NCBI RefSeq assembly: GCF_019464495.1
Contig: NZ_CP080492.1
Span: 1,178,001-1,242,000, forward strand
Direction: 5' to 3'
DNA length: 64,000 nucleotides
From: Leucobacter luti
Lineage (GTDB): Bacteria; Actinomycetota; Actinomycetes; Actinomycetales; Microbacteriaceae
Positions 47,172 through 58,139 of the stretch are shown one piece after another. Under the pieces are notes generated by a model. That model saw only the letters and a list, made by a program, of their open reading frames with translations. It was not told where the DNA came from and did not search any database. Position numbers and translations under genes: made by a program. The number at the start of each line of letters is the position of its first letter. Positions within the stretch are counted from its first letter, which is position 1.

Positions 47172-47744
47172 ACCGACGTGTCGTTCTGAAGCGCTTGGGG
47201 GGCCCGGGCACTTCAGCTGGAGGTACACACACTGAGGTGTCTCAGCGCAAGAGGGATCCTCCGCGGCGTCACCACAATCACTCAGGCGGAGAGCTTTCGG
47301 ACAACTCCCAACTTGCCTGCGTGTTGGCCTGCGTGCTGGACTGCCGGAGGGGAAACTCTCGTCGGCCCGGTCTGGAGGCTCTCCCCTGCACACCGCCCCG
47401 GCATCTCAGGGTTCCGCCCTCGTTCGGAAGCGCGACCTTGCGGAGTCCGGCACAACTCACCACACGGCAGTTCGTTTGGATGCCCCGGGTGTGCGCGTCT
47501 TTCTGAGCTCAGCGAACGAAGATTCGGCTCCCACAACGGCTGGGCTGCTGTCTTGCGGCGATCCAGAGCGGAGGTCCGCGTGACGATCGACGACACAGAT
47601 CGGGTCAGAGGTTTCCCGCATCAGCCGATTCTTGAGACCAACTATTGATGTCGCGGTGTTCGTGCCGGGTCCTGTGCAGGCGTCTCGCAATGTGAGGCCA
47701 AAGCGGGATTCGGTGAATCGCGAGTTTCTGGGTAACAAAAAAGA
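47172..47744. other. Intergenic region left of the integrated element
   Basis: About 570 bp between the VOC gene and the terminator/att region. Open frames on both strands have no ribosome binding site and read as low-quality protein. I see no RNA gene; the stretch may hold a degraded gene that I cannot identify. Confidence 0.4.
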
Positions 47745-47782
47745 CTCCGGAACTACCGCAGATCCCTGCAGTAGTTCCGGAG
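47745..47782 (-). terminator. Ancestral tRNA-Pro terminator left behind at the island's outer end
   Basis: On the minus strand a 12-bp stem (CTCCGGAACTAC with its complement; 14-base loop) is followed by TTTTTTG. It sits just past the 34-bp tRNA-Pro 3'-end fragment, exactly where the terminator of the uninterrupted tRNA gene would have been. Confidence 0.8.
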
Positions 47783-47786
47783 CTAT

Positions 47787-47820
47787 TGGTCGGGCTGACA
47801 GGATTTGAACCTGCGACCCC
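47787..47820 (-). repeat. Attachment-site repeat: 3'-end fragment of tRNA-Pro
   Basis: These 34 bases are identical to 57767-57800, the CCA end, acceptor strand and TΨC arm of tRNA-Pro. Beyond this the tRNA sequence stops (no anticodon arm), so it is a displaced fragment and marks the left end of the integrated element. Confidence 0.92.
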
Positions 47821-48023
47821 TTGGAGGTTTTTGAGCACCACCGAAAGCTTGCGAAAATCTCGAGTTTTCCCTGATCGTACCGGGGATCGAGTGATCCCTC
47901 TTGGGCTAGTCTACCCGGTTGTTGGCGGTCCGTCACGGGTGATTGAGATGGGTTTCTGATGGGTCAAGCAAAGTAGCATAGAACTGATCGCCCTTCCCTC
48001 CAGCAACTTCCCTTTCTTACGCA

Positions 48024-50453
48024 TCATTCATTCTCGACCGAAACCAGGCCTTCGACGCTCTTCTTCTCGAAGTAACGGAACTTTTGGATAGCGTCAGTCA
48101 TGTTGCCGACGTCGATCACGCCGATCTCAGTGAGCTTCCGATAGGACTCAAGCGAAAGACCCGTAGATCGAAGGAACAGCTCGGTGTCCAGCGACTCGAT
48201 GACGTGTGCGAGGCGCTCTTCTCGATAGTCAGTGAGGTACATAAAGATCAGTACCTTCGCCGTCACCTTTTTGAGCTTGTTGCGCAGGTCACGACGCTTC
48301 TCGGCGATCTCCTTCTTCGGCTTCTTCTGTTCGTTCGCTCCACCGCCCTCGCGCTTCACGGTGGTGAGCTTCTTCGATGCCGTTACGATCTTCTCTGCCT
48401 CTTCGCGGATCGTACGGAAGTCTTCAATCTGCTCCAGCTCGGCGATGAGATCAGCGTCTTGGAGGAGCCGATCCATCGTGACGCCGTTTAGGTTGTAAAG
48501 ATCCACCGATCGCCAGCGGCGAGCGAGAGCGTTCGCGCCGATACCGCCGTGTGCCCAGTCGAGGATTGCTTGGACGTCGAGTTGCTCCATCCGGCCACCG
48601 TCAATTGCGAAGATTGGCAGGAAGTTGATCAGTTCGCCGAGCACGGACGCCTGGGTGGCTTGCCGGTCGGAGGAATTGTTGGCCAGCTCTGTGCCATAGA
48701 GTGCCACGAGTGAAAGCGCACGATTCGGGTCAAACTCGAACACATAGGCCGTTTGTTTCTTGGTCTCGCCGTCGATCTTCCACGGAGACTGCACCCGAAA
48801 CGCGGCCTGGAAGTACGATTCGGGAGCCTTCAGCGAGCGAAGCATGAAGATCGATGACCACTCTGGCACGGTCACGCCGGTCATGAGTTTGCCGCACGAG
48901 AGCGTGATCGAACCGGACTTCCCTGCTTCTTCTGCATGACGGATCGCAGCCTGGAGCGGCTCGAGCGCTTTCGCTCCGATCTTCGCCTTCGTGCCCGCGG
49001 CGACATATATTTCGAACCCCGAGAAGTAAGGGTCGTGCCTCAGCAGTTCAGCCATTGCTTCGCACGCAGCAACATCCTGCATGTACCAGACCGAGTGCCG
49101 CACGGCATCCGCAAATTCCGCAGCCTCATAGGGAAATTGGGCATTTGTCTCGAACGCTTCTATTACCCGCTCCGGCAGTGCCTTCTTACCGCGGATCAGG
49201 TCAAGAAAAGAAGCAACATAATCCGGCTTCTCGAAGACGTACGCATCGCTGTCCCTCTTCGCCTTGAAATAGGTGTTCAAGTCGAAACCGGCAAACTCTC
49301 CGCCGTCATCCCAGTCGCCCGCAGGAGCACCCATTGCGTAGGTGTACATCTTCATCTGCGGAAGCTCGGAGTAAGGGTTCGGCCCCTCCGAACGATTCCA
49401 GTTTTCTTTCTCGCGCTGTTCGTCGATGTAGGTCCAGTTGAAGACTTCAGACTCGTCGTAGTCTCCGTTGGTAATCGCTTTGAACGGGGTGCCCGAGAGG
49501 TGCAGGTGAAACTTCGTTTTCAGCCCAGCGTCGGGCTCCAAGACCACATCAGCTTCGTTGTCGGACGCCACTTCCGATGCTTTCGCAAACATCTGTGCCA
49601 TGGCCGCTTCAGACTTATCTTGCGGGTCGTACACCTCCCGTGCGGCAGCGGTTGAGGCGCCGAAATGGAACTCGTCAATGACAATGCAGTCCCAGTCAAC
49701 GAGGTGCAGGGTCTCGTTCCGTGGCTTCGGTAGGCCCGCAGGATCTCGCCCGATGACATCCTGAAATGACGCAAACCAGGCCGTTGGTCTGCCGCTATCG
49801 ATCATCGTGTCAGCATCTTGCGGCGGGGTGTCGCGATCCACATACTGCCAGTCGATGAAGTCCACGTGGCCGAGCAGGTCGTCGCGCCAGGCGCTTCGAA
49901 CAGCGGGCTTGTAGGTGAGGATGAGCAGCTTCGTCCATCCCATCGCGTTCGCGAGCTGGTAGGTGGTGAAAGTCTTGCCAAAACGCATCTTCGCGTTCCA
50001 CAGATATTTCGGGGTGCCTCCAGCATGCGCCCGGAAGAATGCGGCGGTCTGCTCAACGGCATCTTTCTGCTCAGGCCGCATCGGAAAGTCCTGAATGCGC
50101 GTCGGATCAAATGGAACGCCGCACTGCAAGGCACGGATCGCCGCCCAGACTTCACTCTCCGTCGCTTCGAACCACTCCCCACCCGGATTCACCACACCGG
50201 CGCCGGTGAGGACCCGGTGCACGTCGTGGTCGGTAAAGTCGGTTCCATCTGGTTTCGTCGCTGGCTCAGAGTGAAACAATACATCCACGCCCTGGAGCCC
50301 GGGGAAGGCCGTACCGACCTGCTGCCGGACCCGGTCAATGCCAGGATTTACGGTCTGGCCGACCTTGATCCAGGAGTCACCTTTTTGCCCATTCGGGCGT
50401 CGCCACGACTTTGCGTTTCCCGCGTGTGTGTAGGCATAGATGTAGTTCGTCAC
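48024..50453 (-). CDS. GIY-YIG-like nuclease fused to an SF2 helicase
   Basis: An 809-aa protein. The N-terminus (about 1-105) has the GIY-YIG/T5orf172 pattern: YIYAYTH, then WIKVGQT with a downstream Arg (RVRQQ), and a GGEWFEA end. The usual catalytic Glu position appears as Asp (DHDVHRVL). A superfamily-2 helicase core follows: Walker A AKMRFGKT at 154-161, DEFH box at 260-263, motif III-like HLSGTPFKA and motif VI-like QAAFRVQSPW. The C-terminal 200 residues are helical with a Lys-rich segment. The fold suggests an ATP-driven DNA translocase that cuts DNA, as in restriction systems. It is the last gene of the island operon, overlapping the DUF262 gene by 4 bp. Confidence 0.82.
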   Translation of the reverse strand: MTNYIYAYTHAGNAKSWRRPNGQKGDSWIKVGQTVNPGIDRVRQQVGTAFPGLQGVDVLFHSEPATKPDGTDFTDHDVHRVLTGAGVVNPGGEWFEATESEVWAAIRALQCGVPFDPTRIQDFPMRPEQKDAVEQTAAFFRAHAGGTPKYLWNAKMRFGKTFTTYQLANAMGWTKLLILTYKPAVRSAWRDDLLGHVDFIDWQYVDRDTPPQDADTMIDSGRPTAWFASFQDVIGRDPAGLPKPRNETLHLVDWDCIVIDEFHFGASTAAAREVYDPQDKSEAAMAQMFAKASEVASDNEADVVLEPDAGLKTKFHLHLSGTPFKAITNGDYDESEVFNWTYIDEQREKENWNRSEGPNPYSELPQMKMYTYAMGAPAGDWDDGGEFAGFDLNTYFKAKRDSDAYVFEKPDYVASFLDLIRGKKALPERVIEAFETNAQFPYEAAEFADAVRHSVWYMQDVAACEAMAELLRHDPYFSGFEIYVAAGTKAKIGAKALEPLQAAIRHAEEAGKSGSITLSCGKLMTGVTVPEWSSIFMLRSLKAPESYFQAAFRVQSPWKIDGETKKQTAYVFEFDPNRALSLVALYGTELANNSSDRQATQASVLGELINFLPIFAIDGGRMEQLDVQAILDWAHGGIGANALARRWRSVDLYNLNGVTMDRLLQDADLIAELEQIEDFRTIREEAEKIVTASKKLTTVKREGGGANEQKKPKKEIAEKRRDLRNKLKKVTAKVLIFMYLTDYREERLAHVIESLDTELFLRSTGLSLESYRKLTEIGVIDVGNMTDAIQKFRYFEKKSVEGLVSVENE

Positions 50454-52651
50454 TCCATCTCCTCACCGTCATCATTCTCAGTGAATGAAAACACCGAGTC
50501 GACGATGGTTGTCTCGTCAATGATCTCTGCGTCTGCTTCACCCAAGCTGGCCAGATATTCAGCGCGAATGTCTTGAAGGCTCCGCTGGGTGTCCTCGACG
50601 ACCCACCACCACCATCCGTTATGCCCTCTTCCAGTCGCTGCCGTCGCTGCTCCTGAGGGCGTGTCGTACGCGGTGTCCCCGACGTAGAGCAAGCCGTCCT
50701 CCGACACGATCGCAAGCGCGTCAGCGAATTGTGAGTTGGGATGACGGCACCTCAGACGTGTACCCGCATTGAGCCAGCCCGATGAAACGAGATGTGCAAT
50801 GTAGACGTGCGCAGTCTCGGTCGGCTGACGTGGGGTGTCGGCGGGGAGCCCAATGTGGCCTACGGGCACCGGCCAAATGTCAAGGATTTGCTCGGCAAGC
50901 TGATCTGTTCGTGCTTCAATCGTGCGCTCGTCCCACTCAAGCGGCGCGAGGTTCATCGCATCCTTCGTGATGAGCACATCATCGTGGTTCAGAAAATGCT
51001 CACGCTTCGACAGCCACGACCCGTTATTGATCGTGCTGTTCAGCTTCTGAGTAACAAGGGTGAGGTTGCCCAGCTGGTGAAGAATCTGGTCGCGCACGAA
51101 CTGCTGTTCCTCGGTCAAATCAGCCGACCAGTGTTTCCGCCATTTCTGCGGCATAAGGTGCTCAACGGTTCCCTTTTCGCGCACAACCGGCCCCATCGTG
51201 AGCTGCTTACCATCGGGGTAACCCCGTTTGGCGTCTTCGACGGCTTCGAGCACCATCCGAAGACGAACGCGCCGGTATTTGGTGTACGCCTTTGCCCCCA
51301 CTAACGCATCACGCACTTCATCGTCTCCTGGCCAGTAGCCAACGGGCGTGTCGTTCGACGCAAGGTAGTTCTCGATCGCTTCTGGAAGCGCGTCATTCGG
51401 TTGCTCTCGGAGGTGTTTGATCACGTCGATGATGAAGCGGTTTGCGCCCTGTGAGGCGGTTTTCACCAGCGCGCGCCGGACAAGCCAACTCTCTAGCGTT
51501 GCAAGTACGCGTCCCTTATCGGAACCGGATACCTCCGTCTGTTCGGGCTCGTCCAGCCAGATAATGAGCGGGCGCGCGACTTCGGAGTCCAGCGTTCCTA
51601 CCCTGTAGCTGAACAACTCAACCCTGCTGAGCGGCCCGTTCGGCTTCTCTGCCCCCTCGATGATGGCCCGATAGCGATCGGATGCGGCTCTGATCCGCGG
51701 TAATAGAGCGGAGACGTCCTTGGCGACGGTGTTAACGTAATGCTTAAACTGGCTGAAAACTTCTCGAATTGGGAACTCGCTAAGGGTTCGCGCAGTGAGC
51801 CATTGCCAGAGAAACAGGGAGATCCGTGAGTTCGTGATACGCCCTGTGGTGATCTGCTGTTCCCACCAGGGGGTCTCAAACTCTGCCCAATAGTTCAGGT
51901 ATGCCTGCTCAGCCGCATCGGGTGTTGCGTCGAGGTTTTGGAACACAAAATTCTTGATGAGGTCGGCGGCTGAAAGCGGGGTGCCACGCGCATTGAGAGT
52001 CTCGAATATCGCCTGGGCGTCTTCGTTTACTTCGAGACGGATGTTGGCGATTTCAAGGCGATCCAAAATGGTCGGAACAAGGGTGCGTGCGCGACCGATA
52101 GATCCATCATCATCGCCCAGCCATGCAGCAATCTCCTCAGAGAAGAAGCGGTGGGCATCGCTCAATCTCGAGGCGAGTATCTGGTCATAGTCGGCGGGAG
52201 CGGTGGCCGACATCACCGCAACGAAACCGTCACGGTCTCGGTTGGTCGGCCATAGCTTGTATCGATCTTCCTCCGAAGCGCGATAGTCCGTGGGATTCTC
52301 GATCAGCGGAAGAATCTGCCCAGCAAGTTGTTCCAGGCCGCGGTGAACGAGTTGGTCGTGGAGCGCATCCAGAAGAATCTGTAGCGTGGTGAGACGCTGC
52401 TGCCCGTCAATGATATTCCAGGTCGGAAGCGCTCCCAGTGTGGTCGGCACTTGCTGAATGACGATTGCGCCCAGAAAGTGTGACGCGTTCGGGTTGTGCT
52501 TGCTAATGATTTCAATGACGCGGACGATGTCCTGCCACAACGGAGCCCACTGGGTCTCTTTTGACCAGACATACGGACGCTGGAAGAGAGGAACAACCAA
52601 CTGTGTCGGGTTGTAGAAGACATCCTTTGGCTTGACTACGTCGGTCTTCAC
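50450..52651 (-). CDS. DUF262-DUF1524 (GmrSD-like) protein with RAMA-like C-terminus
   Basis: A 733-aa protein. The N-terminal DUF262 domain shows QRPYVW (24-29) and IIDGQQRLTTL (80-90), the ParB-like NTP-binding motif of GmrS. A helical middle leads to a DUF1524 HNH-type nuclease at about 525-600 (HLMPQKWRKHW, then HQLGNLTLVTQKLNSTINN). The last 100 residues resemble the RAMA domain, linked to adenine-methylation systems: DGLLYVGDTAYDTPSGAATAATG then NGWWWWVVED. GmrSD proteins cut modified phage DNA. Here the linkage to methyltransferases suggests sensing of the methylation state. It overlaps both neighbours by 4 bp. Confidence 0.82.
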   Translation of the reverse strand: MKTDVVKPKDVFYNPTQLVVPLFQRPYVWSKETQWAPLWQDIVRVIEIISKHNPNASHFLGAIVIQQVPTTLGALPTWNIIDGQQRLTTLQILLDALHDQLVHRGLEQLAGQILPLIENPTDYRASEEDRYKLWPTNRDRDGFVAVMSATAPADYDQILASRLSDAHRFFSEEIAAWLGDDDGSIGRARTLVPTILDRLEIANIRLEVNEDAQAIFETLNARGTPLSAADLIKNFVFQNLDATPDAAEQAYLNYWAEFETPWWEQQITTGRITNSRISLFLWQWLTARTLSEFPIREVFSQFKHYVNTVAKDVSALLPRIRAASDRYRAIIEGAEKPNGPLSRVELFSYRVGTLDSEVARPLIIWLDEPEQTEVSGSDKGRVLATLESWLVRRALVKTASQGANRFIIDVIKHLREQPNDALPEAIENYLASNDTPVGYWPGDDEVRDALVGAKAYTKYRRVRLRMVLEAVEDAKRGYPDGKQLTMGPVVREKGTVEHLMPQKWRKHWSADLTEEQQFVRDQILHQLGNLTLVTQKLNSTINNGSWLSKREHFLNHDDVLITKDAMNLAPLEWDERTIEARTDQLAEQILDIWPVPVGHIGLPADTPRQPTETAHVYIAHLVSSGWLNAGTRLRCRHPNSQFADALAIVSEDGLLYVGDTAYDTPSGAATAATGRGHNGWWWWVVEDTQRSLQDIRAEYLASLGEADAEIIDETTIVDSVFSFTENDDGEEME

Positions 52652-54336
52652 TCGTCGTCACCACTCTCGTCCGAGTCAGCGGAGGCATCACCAGCGCGGT
52701 ATTTTCGACCGCCTGGGAGGTGCGTCGCCGGGATTGATGAGTCGAGCGAGAGGATGAGCGAACGCGGCTTAATTGATGCCTCGATGTAGTCGATCTCCTC
52801 CTGCGTCAGATTGAATCGGTCATAGAGATCCGTGTCTGTCCAGCGGCGAGTAAAGTCGAGATCAGGAACGAACTTGAACCGTTCACCGGTCACGTGTTGG
52901 GAAATTTTTCTCTGAAGCACAAGAAAACGTGCGAACTTCGTTGCAAGAAAGTATGCGTAGTTCTCGGTTTCAGATCGAGTTGGAAAAGTACCTGCCACCA
53001 GGTAGCTTTGGGTACAAATTGAGCCCGGAGCCAATGCGATCGGTTCGCCGAGAACGACATCAATAATTCGTCCACTATTGTCTAGAGCGGTGTCGCCACT
53101 ACTAGCATTCGGAACAAGCACTTTCCACCGGTTCACCCACTCCTCATTCTTCGTGATCGCGGCTCGAGGAACGTACCCGATCTTGGTGCCGAAGATCAGA
53201 GGTACTGCGCCAGAGAATTCATCAGCCACAGCGCCCTTGTAATTCGTGCGGAAATTGTCATTAAATGCAACACCCGTAGATACGTTCTTCTCAATCGATC
53301 CGAACCAAGCGTGATGGTTCATCACGTGCTTCACTATGGCTACTCCAACATTGTCGCGGAGTAAAACACCATCACCATCTCGCAGATCACGGGTTGCGGT
53401 CGAGATCGTGCGACCATCGATCTTGGTGGTGAAATCGCAGTCGCCATCATGACTGCGATCCCAGAGGAAGTAGGAGACACCACCACGGATTTTCGCCTGG
53501 GGAAACACATCAAATATCTTTGGGCTATCGACCAGGATTTTCAGGTGGCGATCCGCAATCATCCGGGTGCGGTACTCATCGAGACCAAGACCTCCGGCGA
53601 ACCACCGAGACGGCGTGATCATCACCACGTACCGGGGGTTCATCGCGATGGCTCGCTCCACGAACAGGTTGTAAATCGGCTTGGTCCGAGTGTTGCCCTC
53701 GACGCCTATCTGGTAGGGCGGGTTCCCGATGATCACGTCAAACTGCATATCGGCCACCTCCTTCGTTGGGTACGTTTCGTGGATAAATGAGTAAGCAAAC
53801 GATTCACGCTGCGCCCTAATTAATGCTGCAGGCGCACCGCACCGCTCGCACTTCGATCCCTTAAATTTCCCGAGATCATCGAGCGTGTGCTCGGTCTCAA
53901 TGAATGGGATGTTCCCGTCGGGGTCGTCGAAGTGCACGATGAGGTCAGCCAGCGCCGGGTCCTTCACCTCGGTGCCGGTCGCGTTTTTCGTTTGGTAGAG
54001 CGTTCGGCGGGCGATCTCGCCGTTAAGCTGCGTGGTTGCGGCGCCGTAGAGCATGTGCCGCAAAATGTGCGCACGACGCTTCTCGCCATCCGGCTCCCAG
54101 TCAGCGAGACCGACCATGAGCCGCTTGAATACCTCGCGAAGATAGATTCCTGATTTGGTTGCAGGGTCAAGCCATGTGTAGCTCGGTTCTGACCAGACCT
54201 GCTCGGGCAAGATGTCGAGCATAGCCGCCACTACCTTCGGTGGAGTATAAACGTCGTCGTTCGGTAGTTGCGCGAGCGTCTCCAGCACATCCGGAACGTG
54301 GGCATCCGGAGTCTGTGCCACGAAAGTGCTCGTCAT
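52648..54336 (-). CDS. Eco57I/TaqI-like N6-adenine DNA methyltransferase
   Basis: A 562-aa protein. The N-terminus begins DDVYTPPKVVAAMLDIL and contains a degenerate SAM motif I (DPATKSGI at 57-64). The catalytic N6-adenine motif NPPY is at 205-208 (DVIIGNPPYQIG). CERC (163-166) may form half of a zinc site. After about residue 330 comes a region like the target-recognition domain of Eco57I/TaqI enzymes. The tail is Asp/Ser-rich. It would methylate an asymmetric site and protect host DNA. ATGA overlaps with both neighbours imply fixed stoichiometry with the small SAM-binding protein and the effector genes. Confidence 0.85.
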   Translation of the reverse strand: MTSTFVAQTPDAHVPDVLETLAQLPNDDVYTPPKVVAAMLDILPEQVWSEPSYTWLDPATKSGIYLREVFKRLMVGLADWEPDGEKRRAHILRHMLYGAATTQLNGEIARRTLYQTKNATGTEVKDPALADLIVHFDDPDGNIPFIETEHTLDDLGKFKGSKCERCGAPAALIRAQRESFAYSFIHETYPTKEVADMQFDVIIGNPPYQIGVEGNTRTKPIYNLFVERAIAMNPRYVVMITPSRWFAGGLGLDEYRTRMIADRHLKILVDSPKIFDVFPQAKIRGGVSYFLWDRSHDGDCDFTTKIDGRTISTATRDLRDGDGVLLRDNVGVAIVKHVMNHHAWFGSIEKNVSTGVAFNDNFRTNYKGAVADEFSGAVPLIFGTKIGYVPRAAITKNEEWVNRWKVLVPNASSGDTALDNSGRIIDVVLGEPIALAPGSICTQSYLVAGTFPTRSETENYAYFLATKFARFLVLQRKISQHVTGERFKFVPDLDFTRRWTDTDLYDRFNLTQEEIDYIEASIKPRSLILSLDSSIPATHLPGGRKYRAGDASADSDESGDDE

Positions 54337-54932
54337 GCCCCCATCTCCGAGAAATGCACGGTCGGCAACGGCACAGGAGGTTCGTAAAACAAATCCATCG
54401 CGGGTGCCTCCAACTCTGAAGGCACCCGCTGGAAGCGCTCACCCGACAGGGGTGAGTACTCAATGAACACGATCTGCTCGGCGCCGTTCAGCGAGTCACC
54501 AACCACGATGTTCGTTCGGAGGATCTCGCGCGCCGCACGACGGAATGACTCTGAGGCATCCCCGTCGTCGAAGGCAGCCGCTGCCGTAATCATCGCCAAC
54601 ATGCGCTCGCGCGCCTCGTGAACGTTTTGCTCATCGATGTCAACTGCATAGATGGAGGCCACGCAACGCAGAAGTGCGAACTCAAACCAGTCCGCGGTCC
54701 CACCGAACTTCCTCTCGTCGATGAGCGCGATCTTGCGATCCAGAATCGCGACGAGAAAGTTCCCATCACCCGCCGCCGGCTCTAGAAAGCGGGTGTCGAT
54801 TTCGACGAACGCGTCGGGAATGAGGTCAAGCATTGCGTTCACCTCGCGGGGCTGTGTATATACCTCGCCGAGGTCGCGCACCCGTTCCCGAGATTTGATG
54901 TGCCGCGGTTCCGCCATTACACTCCCGCTCAT
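54333..54932 (-). CDS. Small SAM-binding methyltransferase subunit
   Basis: A 199-aa protein from the ATG at 54932 (alternatives at 54917, 54947 and 54956; the frame runs to the IS boundary at 54977). It begins like an adenine methyltransferase (RVRDLGEVYTQPREVNAMLDLIPD) and has a full motif I (FLEPAAGDGNFLVAI). It ends before any NPPY catalytic motif. It may be a partner that supplies SAM binding to the larger enzyme, or a truncated paralogue. It is the first surviving gene of the operon. The IS3 element lies only about 45 bp upstream, so its native promoter may have been lost. Confidence 0.75.
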   Translation of the reverse strand: MSGSVMAEPRHIKSRERVRDLGEVYTQPREVNAMLDLIPDAFVEIDTRFLEPAAGDGNFLVAILDRKIALIDERKFGGTADWFEFALLRCVASIYAVDIDEQNVHEARERMLAMITAAAAFDDGDASESFRRAAREILRTNIVVGDSLNGAEQIVFIEYSPLSGERFQRVPSELEAPAMDLFYEPPVPLPTVHFSEMGA

Positions 54933-55008
54933 CTTTGCCCCAGTCATGCCCTTCATTATGGCGTAGACCACCGACACTGAATCGCCCTGGGTTTAGTGGA
55001 GGCTCAGC

Positions 55009-55929
55009 TCATTTGATTTCTACCAGTTCTTTGGCGCTGGTAACCCCAGCATAGAACTTTTCTTCATGCTCGAGCGGAGGCACGTCCCCGAGGTAGCCGT
55101 GGAGCCGCTGCGTGTTGTGCCAGTGCACCCATCCCAGTGTCGCGAGTTCGAGATCGTCAATCGTTTTCCACGGCCCCGACTTCGCTGGCCCGCGCACCAA
55201 CTCAGCCTTGTAATACCCGTTCACCGTCTCAGCGAGGGCATTGTCATAGCTGTCACCAACAGTCCCAATCGAGGGCGTCGCCCCGATCTCCGCGAGGCGT
55301 TCACCGTAGCGAATAGACGTGAATTGACTGCCCGCATCGCTATGGCAGCGCAGCGCCGGGAGGTGCTTCCCGCGTGACCATCGTGCCATCTCGATCGCGT
55401 CGAGTACCGTCTCGGTCTTCATGCTCGACGCACACCGCCAGCCCACGATCGCACGGCTATATGCGTCAATGATGAAGCACACGTAGGCGACGCCCTGCCA
55501 GGTCGGCACGAACGTCAAATCGGTGACCCACAACTGGTTCGGCCCATCCGCCCTGAATACCCGGTTCACGAGATCAGGATGCCGCGGCATTCGCGGGTCA
55601 GGCTTCGTAGTTTTCACGCGCTTGTCCCGGCGCACGCCCTCAATCCCGAGGGCTTTCATGAGCCGGGCGACCTGATCACGGCCGATATTGATGCCCGCAC
55701 GCTGCGCGGCTTTCCAGAGCTTCCGCACGCCATAGACGGAGTAGTTCGATTCCCAGAGCTCGAGCAGTCTGGGCGCGAGCTCTGCATCTCTAATTCGCCG
55801 AGCAGAGGCTGGTCTGCCATTCGCGGCATAATACGTCGACGGGGCCACCTGCAGCACGCTGCAGGTGCGCTCGACCCCGAGCCTTCGGCCGGCCACGATA
55901 TCGTCCTTATTCGCGTTAATGAATCGCAC
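55009..55929 (-). CDS. IS3-family transposase OrfB
   Basis: A 306-aa DDE transposase. The N-terminal HTH_21 region (GRRLGVERTCSVLQVAPSTYYA) leads to the rve catalytic core: Asp in QLWVTDLTF, Asp in RCHSDAGSQFTS and Glu in NALAETVNGYYKAEL, i.e. DD(35)E type. The GTG at 55929 overlaps the OrfA stop by one base. In this family a -1 frameshift usually makes the OrfAB fusion; I could not fix a slippery site. The gene appears intact. Confidence 0.92.
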   Translation of the reverse strand: MRFINANKDDIVAGRRLGVERTCSVLQVAPSTYYAANGRPASARRIRDAELAPRLLELWESNYSVYGVRKLWKAAQRAGINIGRDQVARLMKALGIEGVRRDKRVKTTKPDPRMPRHPDLVNRVFRADGPNQLWVTDLTFVPTWQGVAYVCFIIDAYSRAIVGWRCASSMKTETVLDAIEMARWSRGKHLPALRCHSDAGSQFTSIRYGERLAEIGATPSIGTVGDSYDNALAETVNGYYKAELVRGPAKSGPWKTIDDLELATLGWVHWHNTQRLHGYLGDVPPLEHEEKFYAGVTSAKELVEIK

Positions 55930-56261
55930 TAGCTCCGGTGTTGGCGGTCGAGCTCCGCCCCGAAGAAAGACGCGGCACGTTTCAGGATTTCATTCGCGCG
56001 CTTGAGTTCACGCACCTCTTGTTCAAGCTCTCGCATACGTGTCTGCTCGTCGGTCGTCACCCCAGCTTTCACACCGTCATCGATGTCAGCTTGACGCACC
56101 CAGGAGCGCACTGACTCGACACCATAACCGAGCTGCTCAGCCACCCGCGACGTCGTTCCTTGGCTCGTGCCGAGCTCGGCGCGGAGCGTTCGCACCATCC
56201 GGACCGCTGCAGCCTTCTCCTCAGTGGAATAGCGGCGTCCCTTGTTCTTGTGTTGGACCAT
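55929..56261 (-). CDS. IS3-family transposase OrfA
   Basis: A 110-aa HTH protein. It has the typical start KGRRYSTEEKAAAVRMVRTLR, a helix-turn-helix (VAEQLGYGVESVRSWVRQADID) and a C-terminal leucine-zipper helix (MRELEQEVRELKRANEILKRAASFFGAELDR). The ATG at 56261 has GGAG close before it. It binds the inverted repeats and provides the N-terminus of the OrfAB transposase. Confidence 0.92.
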   Translation of the reverse strand: MVQHKNKGRRYSTEEKAAAVRMVRTLRAELGTSQGTTSRVAEQLGYGVESVRSWVRQADIDDGVKAGVTTDEQTRMRELEQEVRELKRANEILKRAASFFGAELDRQHRS

Positions 56262-56315
56262 GGCTCCATTCTCGTTCCATAACTCTGGAGCCTCCAACAA
56301 ACCCAGGGTGCTTCA

Positions 56316-57337
56316 GTCGCGACGGTACGCCGAAACTTGTGCGGAGTGACACCCTCGATTCCCGCCAGGTTCATGACGTGGCGCAACTGACGACGTACGT
56401 TGTTCGTCGTCAGCGGGGTGCCCTCGCGGGAGCAGAACAGCAACGCGTCGGGGTCAATTGTGTCGAGTTGCTTCAACCGCAGTTGCACAGCAGTCGCGGC
56501 GAACCCTGGAAGTTGAATCGTGCGTCGCGATCGCGCGGTCTTCGGGTGATCCTGTCGCGCCGTCGGTTCAGCTTTCGGGCTGACGATCGTTCCGGTGACC
56601 CGCAGGGACGGCACGCTCAGATCAATATCCTGTCGGCGGATTGCAAGCACCTCGCCGATGCGCGCGGACGTGCCGAGCATGACCTCGATGATTGCACCGA
56701 GTTGCCCGTCGGGCTTCGGCCCCGAGACGTCGCGTCCGGCTTCCCAATACGCAATCGCCGCACGGATTGCGGTGATCTCCTCGGTCGTGAACGCGTCAGG
56801 CATCCGTACGTCGCGATGCAACCGCGCAACATGATCGACCGGGTTGCGCAACAGTACCTCGTGTCGCACCGCCAGCGCGAGGGCGAGTCGCAGCACCACG
56901 CGCGCATGCTTCGCTTTCGAATACGAATCCTTGGCGAGCCGCTTCAAGAACTGGTCGCATCGGGCGACCCCGATCTCGCGCAACGTCAGATCCTTGAACG
57001 CGGGCAGCATAAGGGTGCGCATGTCTCGCTCATACAGTTGCCGAGTAGCTGTCGCCAGCCGATCCTCCAGCTCGAAGTCTTCGAGCCAGTACGCCACCAG
57101 GTCGGGGAACGGGCTGTCGGCCGTGAGTGACCCCGCACTCGGTGCAATCAGATTGCGGTCGACGCATTTGGCTTTGAGCGCATGGGTTGCAGCGGCCGCG
57201 GTGTCGCCGCTCGCCTGTACGAGCCGGGTAGCGCCGTCCCAGTCTCGGTAGCGGGCGCGGGCCTCGACGCGTCCGCTCGGGCGACGACGGGTCGTGACCT
57301 CACCGTAAGTGCCGATCGTCAAGCGTGGGCGACTCAT
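56316..57337 (-). pseudogene. Tyrosine-recombinase integrase truncated by the IS3 element
   Basis: About 340 residues remain: an Arm-type N-terminus, a core-binding SAM-like domain (about 75-170) and most of the catalytic domain, with Arg in GTSARIGEVLA, Lys in PKTARSRRTI and HxxR in TPHKFRRT. The frame then enters the IS; the LGH box and the catalytic Tyr are missing. The lost end is not found on the other side of the IS, implying a deletion. The gene lies 4 bp after the AlpA-like gene with AGGGA as ribosome binding site. The integrase cannot be active. Confidence 0.88.
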
Positions 57338-57341
57338 CGTG

Positions 57342-57587
57342 TCATCCCTGAGGAGGGCGAGTCCGCACAGAAGGCGCCGGGTCGCGCTGCGCTTCGATCC
57401 ACTCGGTCACGTCCGTGACGGCGAACTTGAGATGCTTGCCAAAGCGGTACGCACGCGGGCCGACACCGCGCGAGCGCCAGTCGTAGATCGTCGAGACGGG
57501 CACGCCGAGATATTTCGACAGCTCGCGGATATCGAGCAGTGGCGGTAGGTCGAGCGGAGGCAACGGAAGCGGGGTTGGGCTGGTCAT
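57342..57587 (-). CDS. AlpA/MerR-type excisionase
   Basis: An 81-aa protein with a winged HTH (LLDIRELSKYLGVPVSTIYDWRSRGVGPRAYRFGKHLKFAVTDVTEWIEAQRD), the form of excisionases and AlpA-like activators that precede integrases. The ATG at 57585-57587 is chosen because it begins just before the conserved region; the frame runs 14 codons further. It lies 180 bp from the tRNA-Pro attachment site and would control excision direction and integrase expression. Confidence 0.85.
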   Translation of the reverse strand: MTSPTPLPLPPLDLPPLLDIRELSKYLGVPVSTIYDWRSRGVGPRAYRFGKHLKFAVTDVTEWIEAQRDPAPSVRTRPPQG

Positions 57588-57731
57588 AAAGACCAGGTGC
57601 ACAATGCGCTCCCAAACAACCGGAACCACCCGCAGGCGACACTCGCGAACCGAACAAAATGCTGTTCAGAAGGCATTTCAGGAGGGGTTTTAGATGGGTA
57701 TTAGATGGCCGGATCAAATATCACAACCTAA

Positions 57732-57765
57732 AAAGTCGCGGAAACCCTTGAGTTTCCGCGACTTT
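57732..57765 (-). terminator. Element-borne terminator of tRNA-Pro
   Basis: A perfect 14-bp stem (57732-57745 with 57752-57765), 6-base loop, is followed on the minus strand by a T-rich tract (TTTTTAGG). It lies one base past the CCA end of tRNA-Pro and replaces the ancestral terminator now at 47745-47782. Confidence 0.88.
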
Positions 57766-57766
57766 C

Positions 57767-57843
57767 TGGTCGGGCTGACAGGATTTGAACCTGCGACCCC
57801 CTGACCCCCAGTCAGGTGCGCTACCAAGCTGCGCCACAGCCCG
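57767..57843 (-). tRNA. tRNA-Pro (GGG)
   Basis: Cloverleaf with acceptor CGGGCUG/CAGCCCG, anticodon stem CCUGA/UCAGG around loop CUGGGGG (anticodon GGG), a TTCAAAT-type TΨC loop, discriminator A and encoded CCA. Its last 34 bases form the right attachment repeat of the island (57767-57800), so the integrated element rebuilt the 3' half of a functional gene. Confidence 0.95.
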
Positions 57844-58139
57844 TTGTACCCAAGATCTTGGCCCCCGCAGGGGAACCGCCATCATGGCAACCCCTCTATC
57901 TTACCCATACTCCGGGCCAACCAGTGACCACCGACGCGTTCTCGACGCACCCCGGGCGCGTCACCACTCCAGCCGTACTGGATACCAGGGGATTACGGCT
58001 AGGCAGGCTTCTAATGCCCCGCACAGCGCGCAACTGCGACAACATCCCAGCTACAAGACACCGCACACCGCCACGCCGCTCACTGCTATCACCCGCAACA
58101 CCCAGCCCACCTCGCTGCTCCCCCGACTACGCTGGGAGC

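Follow-up and report, generated by a model that had tools for sequence, protein, structure and literature searches.

The window, a stretch of 64,000 nucleotides from Leucobacter luti (contig NZ_CP080492.1, positions 1,178,001 to 1,242,000), carries on its minus strand an operon of four genes, here called M1, M2, GM and HEL. With a probability of roughly 0.55, and judging from sequence, we read M1, M2 and HEL as a restriction-modification system with a divided adenine methyltransferase, and GM as its likely auxiliary nuclease. The list of open reading frames (ORFs) and our reading of the DNA agree that all four frames are open and without internal stop: M1 at 54333..54932 (start possibly up to 54977), M2 at 52648..54336, GM at 50450..52651 and HEL at 48024..50453. 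Neighbouring genes overlap by 4 base pairs (bp) each, with the junction letters ATGA between M1 and M2 and GTGA both between M2 and GM and between GM and HEL, and the operon extends from the end of HEL at 48024 to a start of M1 at or above 54917. The original prediction for this DNA had proposed four overlapping genes combining a methylation part, a translocase with a GIY-YIG-like domain and a GmrSD-type protein with a RAMA-like end, and these components are real: M2 matches the Eco57I family, HEL joins a T5orf172-type N-terminal domain to a superfamily 2 (SF2) motor, and GM has a true Pfam RAMA match.

The gene order M1, M2, HEL on the same strand was found by profile searches in 116 of the 121 distinct unfused loci whose upstream sequence spans 3 kilobases (kb) or more, namely in 54/57 named genomes, 33/34 further genomes, 27/27 contigs of a viral collection and 2/3 plasmids (122/128 before removal of duplicates). 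In this count the window stands apart, and loci with less than 3 kb upstream, short loci and fused loci are excluded; the recounts are on 174 distinct loci, after removal of short and long copies of one place, of one locus identical to another (L245 = L002) and of six further duplicates, and they treat genomes as independent, whatever their relatedness. Four of the five exceptions have an M2 remnant (L021, L166), an M1 remnant (L070) or no M1 that could be found (L043), and the fifth, on plasmid pCRULAC2 of Corynebacterium crudilactis (L215), is interrupted because transposon genes and aminoglycoside-resistance genes lie between M2 and HEL. A chance neighbourhood of unrelated genes is rejected by this conserved order. 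In Enterococcus durans, HEL and M2 form one protein of 1456 amino acids (HEL::M2) with a separate M1, and Lactococcus plasmids are alike (1,453-1,461 amino acids overall). Because of these fusions together with the conserved order, M1, M2 and HEL are likely to act together, following the argument from gene fusion. The triad is common and yet the database records examined annotate it gene by gene: at least 7479 relatives of HEL were found among 7999 scored candidates, HEL is present in 28/398 genomes of the host family (E <= 1e-50), and a scan of species genomes gave at least 578 places, the best 80 of which belong by their titles to Actinomycetota, Bacteroidota, Pseudomonadota, Bacillota, Chloroflexota and others.

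The division of labour between M1 and M2 is visible in their motifs. M2 is a predicted Eco57I-type N6-adenine methyltransferase subunit (PF07669, 90.1 bits against a Pfam cut-off of 25.3), and M1, for which Pfam gave no match at E <= 0.1, is by profile comparison paralogous to the N-terminal portion of M2 (hhalign 97.7%, E 1.4e-12). As a methyltransferase N-half, M1 has the cofactor motif without catalytic motif IV: its motif I, EPAAGDGNFL (54753..54782, minus strand), is a canonical S-adenosylmethionine-binding loop in which E51, G55 and G57 are each retained in 136/136 distinct loci, and a catalytic motif of the form [DNS]PP[YFW] was found in 0/117 M1 rows, a set in which some loci occur twice. 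In motif I of M2, DPATKSGIYL (54139..54168, minus strand), a lysine stands in place of the first glycine of GxG; across 153 distinct loci this position is Lys in 146, Thr in 7 and Gly in none, a count that leaves out M1 domains in long open frames, the sole row with the canonical glycine being such a domain. The motif that reads as catalytic motif IV of M2, NPPY (53713..53724, minus strand), keeps its asparagine and first proline in 158/158 and its tyrosine in 157/159 distinct loci, and the two cysteines of a CxxC are retained in 140/140 and 143/143. The loop of M2 has decayed further in the fused relatives than in the unfused loci (ADLYVKSG in E. durans, EINSKTG or EINTKTG in Lactococcus, ADLFSTAG in genome G268), and the M1 partners of the fused relatives stay canonical with EPAAG(D/E)G or EPSAGDG. 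Wherever both genes are readable, the intact cofactor motif is on M1 and the intact catalytic motif on M2, i.e. on separate chains.

These reciprocal motifs point to an adenine methyltransferase with its cofactor and catalytic motifs on different proteins. The claim of a split adenine methyltransferase in the original prediction thus stands as far as the motifs are divided, M1 carrying the S-adenosylmethionine motif and M2 the catalytic one, but the pair is not a plain cut of one methyltransferase because M2 retains an altered N-half of its own. A tentative extension, which we regard as possible rather than probable, is a composite active site, where M1 would hold the methyl donor, the NPPY loop of M2 would hold the flipped adenine, and the old cofactor site of M2 would have become a lysine-bearing structural or regulatory element. 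If true, such a reciprocal two-chain enzyme, spread over many phyla and coupled to a GIY-YIG translocase, would represent a novel type of modification enzyme, and GM with its RAMA domain would be a portable second effector for this and other DNA-marking systems. Alternatively, the lysine might serve cofactor binding by M2, with M1 having another task. The motif pattern makes it testable whether a methyltransferase can hold cofactor and catalytic loop on two paralogous chains. Naturally two-polypeptide DNA methyltransferases have been reported in M.AquI and M.EcoHK31I, which according to the relevant part of the source are cytosine-5 enzymes (PMC3404938). They resemble M1-M2 in being made of two polypeptides; however, they have each motif once, whereas M2 has a second, altered cofactor half and M1 is its paralogue. 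Against the Protein Data Bank (PDB), the M2 sequence gave no match, the M2 profile a single weak one (8c45, E 0.0057), and the M1 profile a single match to 3ufb, a type I methyltransferase subunit (E 1.2e-4).

The third member of the triad, HEL, consists of a GIY-YIG-like (T5orf172) domain (50109..50453), an SF2 translocase core (48549..50099) and a helical C-terminus, all on the minus strand. The whole protein is below the Pfam cut-offs for T5orf172 (15.2 bits against 20) and ResIII (15.5 against 22.5), and its N-terminal 120 residues alone pass that for T5orf172 (20.4 against 20). Matches to T5orf172 and MUG113 at E <= 0.1 are shared by 29/30 N-terminal domains of the family, and the residues K30 and G32 (170/170 distinct loci each), R41 (172/172), D75 and E93 (173/173 each) and Y6 (164/170) are conserved. 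The RecA-like motor fold that marks an SF2 double-stranded DNA translocase is present in HEL, and among the top 50 Foldseek rows for its model are LlaBIII (E 2.5e-10) and SauUSI (E 8e-9), the others being mostly chromatin remodellers and other motors. For the isolated N-terminal domain Foldseek gave no usable match, and there was one weak VIA match, At-HIGLE. PDB sequence searches with HEL and with the HEL profile gave no match.

Several variations on the triad were seen. The Lactococcus HEL::M2 fusions L284 and L285 start with about 200 residues unmatched by the HEL profile, and from their sequence the GIY-YIG-like domain may there be replaced in part by another N-terminal domain. In one genome (G984; L242 / L268) a single open frame of about 1,490 codons apparently contains HEL together with M1-type and M2-type motifs. 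At L264, L265 and L170, HEL is split over two frames (G1051 and G1027) or has a stop (G604), and these are apparently decayed triads. The slot between M2 and HEL is variable, mostly in Bacteroidota, and holds genes that by eye are toxin-antitoxin-like, DUF1016-like, BRO-like, ATPase or helical-bundle-like (L015, L020, L023, L031, L034, L037, L038, L040, L044, L051, L056, L061, L065 and L080). A HEL relative is also present in five phage records (such as PV036449.1, H41), in three of them over 80% of its length, and the triad on the viral-collection contigs L172-L213; therefore phages or phage-like elements may be a further vehicle for it. In PHROGs, matches were limited to general helicase, methyltransferase and unknown-function families.

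The remaining gene of the operon, GM, encodes a DUF262-DUF1524-RAMA protein and is by its sequence an optional, predicted nuclease that joins triad operons repeatedly. Pfam finds in it GmrSD_N (DUF262, 51941..52624, 124.2 bits against a cut-off of 33.2, with the DGQQRLT motif intact), GmrSD_C (DUF1524 HNH, 50891..51334, 87.5 against 23, with the EHxxP motif intact) and RAMA (50543..50833, 47.9 against 35.2), the last overlapped by a DUF4357 match; all are on the minus strand. GM thus has both the domains and the DGQQR and EHxxP motifs that define the GmrSD family, and the copies of GM inside operons retain intact DUF262 and HNH motifs. RAMA is above the cut-off also in L152, L263 and L248, slightly below it in L250 (35.0), and without a Pfam match in the DUF262 neighbours L011, L012, L017 and L267; operon capture is therefore a trait of the GmrSD family at large, since RAMA is present in some captured copies and absent in others. 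In a census resting on longest ORFs, where all family counts are lower bounds, no operon-adjacent family is commoner than the DUF262 type, with 14 loci in the census and two more (L152 and L263) from reading the DNA and from profile hits, at least 16/176 distinct triad loci altogether, and the next are HigA-like (7), HigB-like (5) and ATPase (5) genes, named by eye. Ten of the 16 (the window and nine others) were assigned by Pfam and six (L188, L198, L258, L264, L281, L282) by sequence clustering or profile hits, and L186, L188 and L198 are closely related to one another.

The positions of the DUF262 genes differ between loci: between M2 and HEL in the window, between M1 and M2 in L152 and L263, downstream of the triad in L248, L011, L017, L281 and L282, and upstream in L012 and L267. 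Inserts within the triad were found in 3/22 unfused family loci with all three genes (the window and genomes G526 and G852), and each insert is GM. In G526 (L152) and G852 (L263), where GM has 4-bp overlaps with both M1 and M2, all four families form one overlapping operon, and in G804 (L248) GM lies 45 bp downstream of HEL, so the four families do recur together as the original prediction expected. The GM of the window shares 62 and 64% identity with its counterparts in G526 and G852, as against 36-38% for M1, M2 and HEL, and G526 and G852 share 67% in GM and 73-75% in the triad. Because of this discordance, GM was probably acquired independently, and the simplest reading of the sequences is that it entered two different triad lineages at two places. 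Among the 398 genomes of the host family, HEL is found in 28 (E <= 1e-50) and GM in 20 (E <= 1e-100), and both in 8 where 1.4 would be expected; in all 8 the pair lies within about 31 kb, in 6 within 10 kb. When the window genome is left out, 7 are observed against 1.3 expected (P = 8.8e-5, a value with no correction for relatedness or for the general tendency of defence genes to cluster).

GM also occurs outside the triad. In 12 of its 20 genomes HEL has no match, and in G679 GM lies in 18 kb of DNA without a triad. Its neighbours elsewhere include HsdM and HsdR (L305), HsdR (L309), an MmeI-type methyltransferase with a PLD-helicase (L303), an N6_N4 methyltransferase with a helicase (L307) and an MmeI-type enzyme (L313), and some of the 17 GM contexts (e.g. 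L156, L306, L312) have by eye no neighbour of a methyltransferase system. Genes of the GmrSD type have been reported to neighbour restriction-modification genes, and GmrSD proteins with DUF4357 have been described (PMC4619093). The repeated capture of a GmrSD-RAMA protein, both by the triad and by other methyltransferase systems, extends the idea of the plug-in auxiliary nuclease, recently set out for bacteriophage exclusion (BREX) systems, to a new host system.

If the operon is a restriction-modification system with an auxiliary nuclease, M1 and M2 would jointly methylate adenine in one target sequence, whose choice would fall to the C-terminal region of M2. Unmethylated copies of this target would be bound by HEL in association with M2; HEL would then move along double-stranded DNA using ATP and cleave it by means of the GIY-YIG-like domain. 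GM would attack incoming DNA beyond the reach of this core, in the manner of BrxU alongside BREX, the likeliest target being DNA whose modified bases block HEL. RAMA has been proposed as a reader of N6-methyladenine, but for MPND a preference for methylated DNA was not confirmed (PMC11037411; compare PMC9963953). It is unlikely that the RAMA of GM is a signal to cut DNA with the mark of its own operon: cutting at N6-methyladenine would be self-destructive in an operon that makes GM alongside a predicted adenine methyltransferase, and therefore another modification would be the target, or the host mark would restrain or license GM.

Licensing by the host mark, in the way phosphorothioate licenses SspE, would mean that RAMA reads the N6-methyladenine made by M1-M2 and thereby activates GM against DNA that lacks the mark. 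GM has sequence matches to SspE models and chains, it adjoins several kinds of methyltransferase system, and the part of PMC11037411 on RAMA proposes it as a reader of adenine methylation; however, the partner systems are of differing type, so a shared mode of reading would need to be independent of the motif, and we consider licensing quite unlikely. It is somewhat easier to imagine, although still unlikely, that GM is a hitchhiker without a working link to the methyltransferase or the translocase, as defence genes pile up in islands. Most triads have no adjacent GM, GM lies without the triad in the 18 kb of G679, and other genes (HigB/HigA-like, DUF1016-like and BRO-like by eye) also lie between M2 and HEL in Bacteroidota and others. 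On the other hand, the insertions of GM at two mid-operon places retain 4-bp overlaps, GM is the sole interrupter of the triad in the 22 unfused family loci, and its co-occurrence with HEL is above chance, with relatedness and general defence-gene clustering uncontrolled.

The original prediction went further in the opposite direction and joined the four genes into one system, but this did not hold. The overlapping reading frames and the two further genomes with all four genes in one operon would fit an obligate four-part system, whereas a triad without an adjacent GM is the rule, GM is found beside other methyltransferase systems and in most of its genomes without a HEL match, and the identities of GM and triad are discordant (62-64% vs 36-38%). 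We therefore see an obligate four-part system as highly improbable, and a simple four-gene system is rejected by the GM-free loci and the discordant identities. It is also very unlikely that the locus is a relic or a methylation system without restriction, like dnmA-yeeB-yeeC of Bacillus subtilis, which is reported to lack restriction (PMC9973331, in the part on that species). The island integrase runs into an insertion sequence (IS) directly upstream of M1, and G1027 and G1051 each have HEL divided over two frames, which would suit decay, but all four genes of the window are open, their motifs are conserved across phyla, and Vibrio crassostreae homologues of dnmA-yeeB-yeeC are reported in the same source to affect sensitivity to some phages.

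This dnmA-yeeB-yeeC cluster is the nearest described locus found. As in the triad, an adenine methyltransferase, an SF2 helicase and a T5orf172/GIY-YIG domain come together in a conserved cluster; in contrast to the triad, compared by the domains reported in the pertinent part of PMC9973331, T5orf172 and helicase are separate proteins there and a two-part methyltransferase is not described.

The triad is also similar to type ISP enzymes (LlaBIII/LlaGI) as a predicted ATP-dependent restriction-modification system with an SF2 motor, and LlaBIII is high among the structural matches of HEL. Type ISP enzymes consist of one chain with an Mrr-type nuclease, whereas the triad is spread over three chains and has a T5orf172 domain as well as a second methyltransferase half. 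Type ISP was rejected, as the genes are separate here and the HEL::M2 fusions elsewhere still have a separate M1. Type I was rejected too, as none of the four proteins matches Methylase_S at E <= 0.1 and no further family is present in more than 16/176 loci, as was type III, since M2 belongs to Eco57I (PF07669) and neither M1 nor M2 matches PF01555 at E <= 0.1. GM resembles GmrSD and BrxU in its DUF262 and DUF1524 domains with intact motifs and would act on modified DNA if it follows the family rule; it differs from them by the extra RAMA domain and by being coded inside a methyltransferase-translocase operon. With SspE it shares being a DUF262-type effector coded with a DNA modification system, the modification being phosphorothioation in Ssp and predicted adenine methylation here.

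The original prediction had not recognised the set as a named system, in agreement with which the PADLOC gene models matched single genes only. REase_MTase_IIG (PDLC03626, 1359 positions) matches HEL (119-631) and M2 (177-523) in different parts of the model, a partial match spread over two proteins with M1 unmatched. Among the matches listed (25 of 43), M1 is weakly similar to mad2 and PglX and GM to SspE and others, with no PglZ, BrxC or SspB-D rows for the four proteins. No name for the triad and no description of the reciprocal motif pattern was found in the search listings and passages drawn from an open-access library, subscription papers and REBASE being outside the search.

The operon lies on a mobile 10-kb island between 37-bp direct repeats of the 3' end of tRNA-Pro(ggg), 9,980 bp apart. 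The left repeat (47787..47823) is a copy of the tRNA-Pro 3' end, and the right one (57767..57803) is inside the intact tRNA-Pro(ggg) gene (57767-57843). In 1.5-kb bins the GC content is 0.556-0.636 in the island, compared to 0.639-0.670 in the flanking bins. The ORF of a tyrosine integrase (56069..57337, minus strand) continues at its 3' end into an IS3-type element in the interval between integrase and M1 (54967..56326, minus strand, ends set by 39-nucleotide inverted repeats that are 79% complementary), and as a result the integrase probably lacks its catalytic C-terminus. The element stops about 10 to 35 bp ahead of the likely starts of M1, and the native promoter of the operon has perhaps been lost through it. 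The start of M1 is itself uncertain because there are six in-frame start codons (54977, 54971, 54956, 54947, 54932 and 54917), the first two of which fall within the IS terminal repeat. A scan of 47600-57900 for sigma-70-like promoters found 0 against 3.3 expected in shuffles and was uninformative. Directly beyond the left island repeat, at 47744-47783, there is a strong terminator-like stem of 18 pairs followed by a T run. A small ORF adjoining the integrase (57342-57629) has by eye the look of a helix-turn-helix protein or excisionase and is presumably a member of the island.

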